Origin: Alphaproteobacteria bacterium
GTDB lineage: Bacteria > Pseudomonadota > Alphaproteobacteria > Caulobacterales > Hyphomonadaceae
DNA length: 64,000 nucleotides
Reading direction: 5' to 3'
Assembly (NCBI GenBank): GCA_018830285.1
Contig: JAHJSB010000063.1
Span: 62,001 to 126,000 of the forward strand
This document shows, one piece after another, positions 38,335 to 40,582 of the stretch. Below the pieces are notes generated by a model. That model did not search any database and was not told the DNA's origin. It saw only the letters and a program-made list of their open reading frames with translations. The stretch's first letter is position 1; every line of letters starts with the position of its first letter. Position numbers and translations under genes: made by a program.

Positions 38335-39225
38335 TCAGGCGAACTGCGGCGCGATCTTCAGGTTCTTGACCCAGCCGATTTTTTCGAAGGCGAGCAGGAT
38401 GGTGCCATTATAGTCGACGATCCGGTTCCAGACGCCTTTGCGGGGGCGATGCAGGGCGCTTTGGGGCGCGTCATGATGGTGGTCGTGGAAGGCTTCGCCG
38501 CCAGTCAGCAGGGCCATCAGGTGATCGGCCCAGATCGGTGTCTTGAGGTGGCCGAGCACATTGATGCCGTAGACCGTGGCGTGGAACTGGATGGCGCGGC
38601 CAATGACAACGCTGGCATGGATTATCGCGGTTAGCACCAGCGACCCGCCCGTGGCCCAGACGATGAGATAGATCGCAGCCGGAATGACCAGGTGCACGAC
38701 AAGGCTCAGCTCGTTGTAGAACCGGTCCATCCAGACGATCACGGGCTGGTCTTTCAGCCACATCGCAATCGGGCGGTCGGTGTCCTGCTTGTCGCGCCAG
38801 AGAATCCAGCCGACCCAGGCCCAGCGCTTGGACTCGAAGGGATTGTGCGGGTCGCCGGGCGCGTCGGCAAAGCGGTGGTGCTGGGAATGATAGTTCACCC
38901 AGTCCTTCACATTGCCCTGCATGGCCAGCATCAGGTTCATCATGGTCAGGAACTGCGCAGGCGCCTTCAGTTCACCGGCGCGGTGCTGGAGGATGCGGTG
39001 CAGCGGCCCGATGCCGAGATTGCACATGAAGACGGAGAGGGCGACGACGCCGAAGGCCAGCGGGAAATACCACCAGTGCAGCGTCAGCTCGCTGAGCACG
39101 ATGCCAAGCACGACCATGGTCGTGAACAGGGCAATGCCGAGAGCCGGGTATCCAAAGGCGGAAAAGAAACTTGCCCCATTGAACGTCTTCCACGTTTTCG
39201 GGATGGCCAGCGAACGAGGTATCAT
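38335..39225 (-). CDS. Acyl-CoA/fatty acid delta-9-type desaturase
   Basis: Integral-membrane di-iron desaturase of 296 aa. The three histidine boxes are intact: LHRILQHRAG (HxxxxH), YHSQHHRFAD (HxxHH) and FHDHHHDAP (HxxHH-like). Two pairs of helices separate boxes 1/2 from box 3 (IALFTTMVVLGIVLSEL, ALSVFMCNLGI; LVVHLVIPAAIYLIV, LTAIIHASVVIG). It introduces a double bond into a saturated acyl chain using ferredoxin or cytochrome-type electrons. The start ATG at 39225 is followed by MIPRSLAIPKTWKTF. Confidence 0.9.
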   Translation of the reverse strand: MIPRSLAIPKTWKTFNGASFFSAFGYPALGIALFTTMVVLGIVLSELTLHWWYFPLAFGVVALSVFMCNLGIGPLHRILQHRAGELKAPAQFLTMMNLMLAMQGNVKDWVNYHSQHHRFADAPGDPHNPFESKRWAWVGWILWRDKQDTDRPIAMWLKDQPVIVWMDRFYNELSLVVHLVIPAAIYLIVWATGGSLVLTAIIHASVVIGRAIQFHATVYGINVLGHLKTPIWADHLMALLTGGEAFHDHHHDAPQSALHRPRKGVWNRIVDYNGTILLAFEKIGWVKNLKIAPQFA

Positions 39226-39430
39226 ATGTGTTGTCTCCCAATCGGCCGACGGGCCAGTGCGTTCTGCAAGGCATTCTCAGGCCGGGCCGATTAACACTTA
39301 CTTAAGGCCCGTCAGGCCTTCCGGAAAGGCATAATCCTCAGCCCTGACGCAGGTGTGATACGTGGGGGTGACGAGTGTGCAAAGTTTCGGGTAAGTCTGC
39401 GGCCCGGGTTCAACGAGGGGTCACGTGTTC

Positions 39431-40582
39431 ATGGCCGATTCACGAGAAGAATTTCTTCTGCAGAAGATATCCCGACAGTTGGGATCCCTGCTTGATGATG
39501 CGAGCCAGGACTCGAGCGAGCAGAAGAGCCAGTGTCCGCTTGACGAAGCGTGTGCTGCCTCAGACGAATATAGCCTCACACTCTACCTTGAGCGCGGAAC
39601 GTACCATTGCAAGAATTGTGGGGCTCAAGGCTCCTTCGAGGAGCTTGTCGAGGAACTGGGTTCCCTGCCCCAGCAGCGCTTTCGGGGAATCCCGGCGCAC
39701 GACGAACCGGAGCCCAGACCAGACCGCAAAGATGAATTCGCGGTGGAAAAACGCGTGCAACGAAACGCGATTGTATCGAAGGAGCCCAGAGTTCTAGCGC
39801 TCAAGACTGAGCACCGCGTCCCGCCATCGCCTCCCCTTCCGCATCGCAATCTCGGCGAGCGGGTCATCATCACTCTTCTCGCGCTCGTATTCCTTGGCGC
39901 GGGGCTCAGCGCGGCAGCCCTGTCGGGCTTTGCCAATTACCAGGCGTTCTCCAGTTCGGTGACCGACCCGCTGCAGGCCGGAATCTGGGGCTGGACCGGG
40001 GTGATTGCGGCGGTGATCTCGTTCGGCGGCTTCACCTTCTTCTACTGGCATACCGCCAACAAGCGCATGAAGGAGGCAGTCCGCGCCCTGCTCTTCGCGC
40101 TGGCCGGCGCCGGCACCAGCATCCTTGGCACGCAGATGTATATCGCGGCCAATAACCAGGCCTCCGTAGCGGAGATCAGCACGGCCGGATCGAACCGCGC
40201 GCTGCTGGAACAGCAGCTCGGCGACTGGCGCGTACAGCTCGCCGGAATCCCGCCGGAAACACGCTCCGTCGAAGGGCTCGAAGCCTATATTTCGGAAGTC
40301 GAACGCGTCGGCCGCACCGAACAGAAGCCCTATCGCGACGCCCAGAACGAACTCGGCCTCGCCCGCCGCCGTGACGACCTGCAGGCCAAGATCGAAGCGG
40401 CCAATGCTGAACTGCTCGGCAAGGGCAATGGCGATATCCTGATCGAAGCGCAGGCGCGCGCGGCAATACCCAGCTGGTTCTTCGCCGGCATGCTGGAACT
40501 CTTCTCCAGCCAGGGCACGAGCATCGGGCTGGTCGCGCTGCTGATCCTGTATACGAAACGGCGCGAGCCCGCTCAGCCATAA
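39431..40582 (+). CDS. Membrane protein with N-terminal CHC2-like zinc finger and coiled coil
   Basis: No family recognised as a whole. ATG at 39431 gives 383 aa (a GTG at 39425, also after GAGGGG, is possible). Residues about 33-75 resemble the CHC2 zinc finger of DnaG primase: CPLDEACAAS, then the YHCKNCGAQGSFEELV knuckle; the usual His is replaced by Asp/Cys. A charged linker leads to three transmembrane helices (about 140-245: VIITLLALVFLGAGLSAAAL, GWTGVIAAVISFGGFTFFYW, LLFALAGAGTSILGTQMYIA). A roughly 100-residue coiled coil (LEQQLGDWRV, AQNELGLARRRDDLQAKIEA) and a last helix (about 345-375) complete it. It is monocistronic and convergent with the ExoD gene. Confidence 0.7.
   Translation: MADSREEFLLQKISRQLGSLLDDASQDSSEQKSQCPLDEACAASDEYSLTLYLERGTYHCKNCGAQGSFEELVEELGSLPQQRFRGIPAHDEPEPRPDRKDEFAVEKRVQRNAIVSKEPRVLALKTEHRVPPSPPLPHRNLGERVIITLLALVFLGAGLSAAALSGFANYQAFSSSVTDPLQAGIWGWTGVIAAVISFGGFTFFYWHTANKRMKEAVRALLFALAGAGTSILGTQMYIAANNQASVAEISTAGSNRALLEQQLGDWRVQLAGIPPETRSVEGLEAYISEVERVGRTEQKPYRDAQNELGLARRRDDLQAKIEAANAELLGKGNGDILIEAQARAAIPSWFFAGMLELFSSQGTSIGLVALLILYTKRREPAQP

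Follow-up and report, generated by a model that had tools for sequence, protein, structure and literature searches.

The zinc-binding domain of bacterial DnaG primases (PF01807; PDB entries 1d0q and 2au3) consists of a helix, a four-stranded ribbon and a second helix, with the metal ligands arranged in two knuckles. C4 ribbons are also found in proteins of the MJ0042 type (PF13717), and fusion of such a ribbon to a membrane segment is common in Alphaproteobacteria. Beyond zinc ribbons, the closest described systems are membrane proteins of Caulobacter that respond to DNA damage. HigX is described as an SOS-induced membrane transcription factor with four helices (PMC13384398), whereas SidA and DidA are division inhibitors located at the inner membrane and induced by DNA damage, SidA through the SOS response (PMC4211646). 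Here, we analyze a protein from related marine bacteria of the Hyphomonadaceae that combines a predicted ribbon of the primase type with a membrane core, for which we found no published description in the open-access literature.

The ribbon of this protein resembles the DnaG domain in the succession of helix, four-stranded ribbon and helix, and in the placement of the ligands in two knuckles, and the sequence profiles of the two align over the ribbon. The ligands themselves are spaced differently, C-x2-H and C-x2-C in DnaG but C-x5-C and C-x2-C in the protein studied here; moreover, the domain is acidic whereas that of DnaG is neutral to basic, and it scores below the Pfam cut-off. Unlike DnaG primase, the protein has four membrane helices, and no polymerase or helicase-binding domain was found in it. 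HigX and the protein studied here share four membrane helices, a low-complexity linker, a small soluble domain and an alphaproteobacterial link to the SOS response, but the soluble domain of HigX is a C-terminal LytTR domain, and HigX has no apparent periplasmic domain. SidA and DidA offer a functional parallel only: SidA is a protein of 29 residues, DidA is SOS-independent, and a zinc ribbon is absent from the available description of either (PMC4211646). The MJ0042-type proteins share the C4 ribbon, although their profile similarity to the whole family is weaker than that of DnaG (see below). We regard the architecture as new and the domain itself as known; the swap of a ligand is documented below.

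The window, that is, the entire stretch of 64,000 nucleotides that was analyzed, comes from a genome of 3.56 Mb whose nearest relatives are Hyphomonas records. The features identified in it are collected in Table 1. The start codon lies at the ATG position in nearly all relatives, as placed by a script that favours ATG; an alternative in-frame start is the GTG at 39425. The zinc ribbon comes first; a linker of variable length connects it to three membrane helices, which a helical stretch separates from the fourth. The fusion of a DnaG-like finger to a four-helix membrane protein, as originally predicted, was thus borne out by four hydropathy segments.

Table 1. Features of the gene, its product and the adjacent divergent gene (positions in the window; residues of the 383-residue protein)
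Feature	Position	Strand	Basis and remarks
Coding sequence, 383 aa	39431..40582	+	ATG 39431, stop to 40582; frame confirmed
Predicted primase-type zinc ribbon, residues 1-80 (helix, four short strands, helix)	39431..39670	+	AlphaFold models, fold matches, profile comparison
Cys35, predicted metal ligand	39533..39535	+	Invariant in 38/38 rows
Cys41, predicted metal ligand (C-x5-C in the window)	39551..39553	+	Invariant in 38/38 rows
Cys60, predicted metal ligand	39608..39610	+	Invariant in 38/38 rows
Cys63, predicted metal ligand	39617..39619	+	25/38 rows; His38 instead in 13/38 (one Hyphomonas clade)
Variable linker, residues 81-140	39671..39850	+	Length 48-91 residues in 40 rows; pLDDT
Membrane helix 1, residues 145-163	39863..39919	+	Hydropathy
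Membrane helix 2, residues 183-203, conserved SFGGFTFxxWH at end	39977..40039	+	Hydropathy, alignment
Membrane helix 3, residues 216-234	40076..40132	+	Hydropathy
Helical domain, residues 235-354, probably periplasmic; conserved GIPPETR and QKPYRDAQNELG motifs	40133..40492	+	Alignment, model
Membrane helix 4, residues 355-373, with FSSQ-TSI	40493..40549	+	Hydropathy, alignment
Promoter-like element GTGACG-N17-GTAAGTCT	39368..39398	+	LexA-type operator on the same element in some relatives, not in the window
TTAA-N7-TTAA (CtrA-type box)	39291..39305	.	About 80 bases upstream of the desaturase-like gene
Divergent gene, membrane protein resembling fatty-acid desaturases	38335..39225	-	PF00487 E 6e-5, below Pfam cut-off; conserved neighbour

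In the full-length AlphaFold model, whose mean pLDDT of 63 is too low for a fold search with the membrane part, confidence falls below 50 at residues 82-131 and 137-139, and the linker is probably disordered. Basic residues precede helix 1, lie between helices 2 and 3, and follow helix 4, a distribution from which we infer that the zinc ribbon and both ends of the protein should be cytoplasmic and the 235-354 stretch periplasmic. The latter region had been predicted to form a coiled coil of 100 residues. It is indeed helical in the model, but the helix is interrupted around residues 272-279 and 294-298, at the conserved GIPPETR and QKPYRD motifs; "helical domain" is a safer name than a single coiled coil. 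The membrane core is the most conserved part of the protein, with a mean column identity of 73% in the membrane part vs 41% in the ribbon. All parts evolve at dN/dS below 1 in the close pairs looked at, with values of 0.04 for the ribbon, 0.14 for the linker and 0.02 for the core in the pair L044/L045.

The N-terminal domain carries the motif CPLDEAC...YHCKNCG at residues 35-64. Sequence search alone would not settle to which fold this motif belongs. The CHC2 profile PF01807 matches the window protein at E 0.2 (12.0 bits, below the gathering cut-off of 24.9) and only 5 of 38 aligned relatives at E up to 1 (best E 0.03), and among 40 rows, several Pfam models for generic zinc ribbons, such as Zn_ribbon_IS1595 (12 rows), Zn_Ribbon_TF (8) and a third one (5), have more matches than the DnaG model (3). 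Structure prediction points more clearly in one direction. The model of residues 1-84, built from 19 aligned sequences, averages a pLDDT of 73 overall and 76-87 by block across residues 31-80, and shows a ribbon with two knuckles and not a fold without a knuckle. The top Foldseek match of this model in the PDB is the zinc domain of Bacillus primase (1d0q; probability 0.99, E 0.002), followed by the T4 and Aquifex primases at ranks 2 and 3, with no PDB match at E under 0.001. In a comparison with 138 chains using VIA-align, the six top entries (Z 5.3-6.3) were all zinc domains of primases or primase-helicases, and the next entry reached 3.7; these top matches cover 64-77 residues, and their Z scores are moderate but clear of unrelated rows. 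When the full-length model was searched, the Bacillus and Aquifex primases came first as well.

Profile comparison gave the same answer for the family as a whole. Using hhalign, the N-terminal alignment of the family matched 27 DnaG domains of the same order at 94% (score 41.6), whereas 60 column shuffles yielded at most 1.6% (score at most 15.2) and a set of 8 MJ0042-type ribbons yielded 47%. The DnaG set derives from 30 loci, 27 of which gave the domain by motif (L132-L134 were dropped); with a first set of only 4 DnaG domains, the values were 92% for the whole family and 34% for the second genus alone. The Hyphomonas clade in which His38 replaces Cys63 (hereafter, the H38 clade) matches DnaG at 74% and the MJ0042-type ribbons at 0.3%; the rows of the second genus taken alone do not separate the two (56% vs 49%). 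An MJ0042-type identity was accordingly rejected, near-equality being confined to the second genus. The assignment of the N-terminal domain to the zinc ribbons of the primase (CHC2/DnaG) fold therefore holds at the level of predicted structure and profiles, in agreement with the original prediction, and the conservation of the motif together with the predicted structure makes it more than a chance resemblance. No Toprim or RNA-polymerase domain was matched after the zinc domain at E up to 10. With no catalytic domain found, a score below the Pfam cut-off and a different ligand set, the protein is not a primase but carries a domain of the primase fold.

A separate observation concerns genome G024, where a 383-residue frame (L155:2724-3872) with a CHC2-like motif (CPAHDDSSPSLS) lies near an integrase-like frame and is the only PF01807 match there. 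This frame is probably the primase of an integrated element; the DnaG of the same genome was not found.

The absence of the histidine seen in the DnaG knuckle had led to the suspicion that the finger might not bind zinc. The alignment of 38 rows (37 of the window's genus and L018 of another genus) argues otherwise. Three of the predicted ligands, Cys35, Cys41 and Cys60, are conserved throughout, so that the conservation of the cysteines on which the original prediction hinged is confirmed, and the fourth is either Cys63 or His38. These two residues never occur together, such that four of the five possible ligands are present in all 38 rows. A tree built from the membrane part of 60 rows shows the replacement of Cys63 by His38 as a single switch with an SH-aLRT support of 100; the His38 rows, 13 of 38 in the alignment, are 14 of 60 here because one row was added. 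Within the H38 clade, position 63 varies (T, Y, S, E, A, D) and His38 is fixed, giving C-x2-H-x2-C plus one Cys in place of the C-x5-C and C-x2-C of the window. In a wider alignment of 40 rows, 19, every one of them from another genus, have C-x2-C as the first knuckle, and the others have C-x4-C or C-x5-C; 19 of the 21 rows of other genera have C-x2-C twice. A ligand count kept at four while the residues change is the behaviour of a real metal site, and zinc binding, with Cys41 as the second ligand, appears likely from this pattern: Cys41 would supply what the missing histidine does not, and the H38 clade has a histidine where Cys63 is lacking.

The DnaG proteins of the window's own order (L001, L116-L144) present a different picture. 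In 23 of the 27 domains, that of the window's genome included, the zinc ligands are lost, with SPFT or similar and [CD]FSS or similar in place of CPFH and CFGC. The 4 domains that keep the ligands all come from one other family.

The gene is chromosomal, and we found it in a single family. We matched it in 65 of the 105 family genomes, belonging to 4 of 10 genera, and in all 42 listed genomes of the window's genus, one of these matches being a 3' fragment and another a truncated copy at a contig end (the genus total refers to listed genomes; 5 of the 105 family genomes are outside both listings). Searches of broader samples, in which at most 4 or 7 candidates were scored per genome such that absences are not absolute, added no relatives: 61 of 398 genomes of the order match, 60 of them in the family, and both matches among 385 genomes of the class are from the window's genus. 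The one order-level match outside the family (G057; E 3.5e-5 over 42 positions) is weak, falls in a frame without other resemblance and was not counted. In the phylum sample of 398 genomes, 9 have a match to the membrane core at E up to 0.1, of which three are clear and all from the window's genus, and the remaining six are weak (E 0.001-0.06); among solved structures searched by sequence, the best E was 1.2. The window protein also reaches 21 bits against the BrkB/YihY profile (PF03631; cut-off 33.7), with weak matches in 36 of 38 and 19 of 40 rows, but kinship with this family was rejected because hhalign gave 0.2% against 17 members, whereas controls gave as much as 3.7% (block-shuffled columns) and 9% (reversed columns). 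Thus, neither the phylum sample nor the solved structures nor the BrkB/YihY comparison revealed a relative of the membrane core beyond the family.

Two Hyphomonas genomes carry what appear to be decaying copies: in G022 (L053), the last ~80 residues of the gene remain, and in G318 (L110), there is an early stop after ~300 residues, near a contig end. The gene can therefore probably be lost. In G010, a second partial copy with its own desaturase-like neighbour occupies a contig of 3.1 kb (L051, contig C74), perhaps reflecting a strain mixture or contamination in the assembly.

Upstream of the gene, the window has a promoter-like element. In 55 of 60 loci, [TG]TGAC occurs 51-82 bases before the ATG, but because 12.5% of shuffled sequences contain it too, the -35 pattern is loose; the upstream region of L034 has the same GTGACG-N17 element as L009-L012. 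We scanned 62 loci, near-copies included, for operators of the type GTTC-N7-GTTC, given as the exact LexA consensus of C. crescentus in PMC12907096. A perfect box was found upstream of the focal gene in 14 of the 62 loci, compared with 0.5% in dinucleotide shuffles and 5 of 459 other genes of the same and related loci, although one of these five is in fact the box of the focal gene, attributed to an antisense frame. Ten of the 14 boxes overlap the -10 region of the promoter-like element, of which five (GTTCTGTTWGTGTTC) belong to a branch of the second genus and another five (GAAC-N7-GAAC) to a Hyphomonas clade. Near-copies raise the number of loci, and the independent units are these two clades. 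The remaining four, located in the leader at -18, could be fortuitous given that a ribosome-binding site may create such boxes. In the other branch of the second genus, all 13 scanned loci reach 7 of 8 positions, 12 of them with two overlapping sites. As a positive control, genes for proteins with the LexA DNA-binding domain have a perfect box in 15 of 20 related genomes, including that of the window; among the recA genes of related genomes, no site exceeds 7 of 8, the hit of row L194 being left out because that row was read in a wrong frame. No perfect box precedes the gene of the window, where the best match is 7 of 8 (GTTCAACGAGGGGTC at -23), a level attained by ~10% of shuffles, and the 16 scanned loci of the H38 clade reach only 5 or 6 of 8. 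These operators suggest that the gene is switched on by DNA damage in some relatives; SOS control, if real, would apply to part of the family and not to all of it.

On the other side of the promoter region lies a divergent gene for a desaturase-like protein. Three His boxes are visible in its sequence, although the NCBIfam matches, like that to Pfam, are below cut-off. In 14 of the 46 distinct upstream stretches obtained from the 64 loci that gave a start, a perfect TTAA-N7-TTAA, which we take to be the CtrA consensus, is located 71-97 bases upstream of this gene, compared with 0.1% in shuffles. In other genera, a cupin-like gene, just below the Pfam cut-off, lies between or beside the focal and desaturase-like genes, and several loci of the second genus have grouped genes between the cupin-like and desaturase-like genes; at L105:10963-11217, a gene for a YjhX-type putative toxin is found in this position. 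Furthermore, in one branch of the second genus (10 loci: L097, L099-L102, L104-L108), the focal gene is accompanied by a Fur-family gene that scores above the PF01475 cut-off and has Zur as its best NCBIfam match, below cut-off.

We tentatively favour, as the leading candidate among several, the possibility that the protein is an effector of envelope or division stress that is under SOS control in some members of the family and docks a protein through its zinc ribbon. In this scenario, the chromosomally encoded protein would reside in the inner membrane of Hyphomonas and of some genera close to it and have its working part in the conserved four-helix membrane core and the periplasmic helical domain, whereas the cytoplasmic ribbon on its flexible linker would most likely be a structural zinc module that docks a protein partner and not DNA. 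Where LexA-mediated induction by DNA damage operates, in part of the family, the protein might act from the membrane on the envelope or the division machinery, in a manner, though not in sequence, like SidA or HigX of Caulobacter. This reading leads because of the SOS operators in part of the family and the precedents of SidA, DidA and HigX. Against it stand the lack of a perfect operator in the window and in the H38 clade and the conserved desaturase-like neighbour, which has no obvious tie to DNA damage. The main rival, although on the unlikely side, is a role beside that protein: the focal protein could be a partner or regulator of the desaturase-like protein, for instance, a membrane-state sensor or a desaturase accessory, that tunes membrane lipid composition, with the ribbon docking the enzyme or a regulator. 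The original prediction called for a comparison of neighbours in other genomes, and among the neighbours of three Hyphomonas loci, the desaturase-like gene is the sole one that persists, in 19 of 22 loci of other genera as against at most 4 of 22 for any other. The two genes are divergent in 63 of 66 places (one genome is counted twice on account of a second partial copy on a short contig), namely, in all 43 of Hyphomonas, where the matched stretches lie 200-273 bases apart, and, for the other genera, in 17 of 19, 1 of 1 and 2 of 3, at distances of 754 to 7173 bases; in the three exceptions, the desaturase-like gene is on another contig (two) or absent (one, in an assembly that is 90% complete). 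An orthologue of it is present in 64 of the 65 genomes with the focal gene vs 16 of 40 without, a co-occurrence whose P value exaggerates the association because genomes of one family are not independent. The same comparison cuts the other way: the 16 genomes that keep the desaturase-like gene alone imply that it does not need the focal gene, and in other genera, the cupin-like gene, the Fur-family gene or additional sequence, as much as 7 kb, often comes between the two. In the perfect-box branch of the second genus, moreover, the LexA-type box is directly before the focal gene, behind the cupin-like gene, and no such box precedes the desaturase-like gene, for which none of 39 distinct upstream stretches reaches 7 of 8 (maximum 6 of 8). 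The annotation of the neighbour is itself below the Pfam and NCBIfam cut-offs.

The other explanations center on the ribbon. It had been proposed originally to tether or sense DNA at the membrane. Binding of nucleic acid, DNA or RNA, by the ribbon would accord with the good fold match to primase zinc domains, with the role of the DnaG zinc domain in recognition of the DNA template, as stated in PMC6163395, and with the precedent of HigX, described as a four-helix membrane protein that binds DNA in Caulobacter (PMC13384398). The charge of the domain weakens this idea: the net charge is -10 in the window and ranges from -10 to 0 over 40 rows (mean -5.5), whereas the 27 zinc domains of DnaG from this order carry 0 to +5 (mean 2.7). 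The difference stems from the N-terminal helix and the flank, because the core ribbon alone is about equally acidic in the two sets (means -1.7 and -2.4). Across the 40 rows, the ribbon has no invariant residues other than the start Met and C35, C41 and C60. On these grounds, DNA binding looks unlikely, and we consider a nucleic-acid tether or sensor improbable. A zinc or redox sensor, in which loss or oxidation of the site would alter the activity of the membrane core, appears similarly doubtful. The constancy of four ligands through the swap and the Fur-family gene beside or near the focal gene in one second-genus branch would fit; however, structural zinc sites are conserved as strictly as sensor sites, and the Fur-family gene is not grouped with the focal gene in the three Hyphomonas loci examined or in the perfect-box branch. 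It is very unlikely, in our estimation, that the protein is an SOS-made, membrane-anchored mimic of the primase zinc domain that docks primase or a replisome protein and slows replication or division until repair; if so, a replication domain would have been turned into a checkpoint, in bacteria whose own DnaG is largely without zinc ligands. Finally, CHC2 domains are common in mobile elements, and the family has three weak matches to primases in PHROGs (best E 0.04), which could hint that a membrane protein of a mobile element or phage had captured a primase domain. The association of such fingers with mobile elements, raised in the original prediction, did not extend to this protein: neither phages and plasmids nor viral contigs, the latter scanned with two short motifs, yielded a relative, every listed genome of the genus has a match, and the chromosomal neighbour is stable. 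As far as the searched phage, plasmid and viral collections reach, a mobile origin is refuted, and we give it hardly any credence.

A zinc domain of the primase type that serves outside replication and mobile elements, on a membrane core for which we found relatives in one family only, would widen the known uses of this fold. The exchange of Cys63 for His38, one event on the tree with four ligands kept, represents a clean natural case of the rewiring of a metal site. With regard to the favoured role as an envelope stress effector, if SOS control is confirmed in the clades that bear the operator, the protein would become a candidate effector of the envelope response to DNA damage in Hyphomonas and its relatives.
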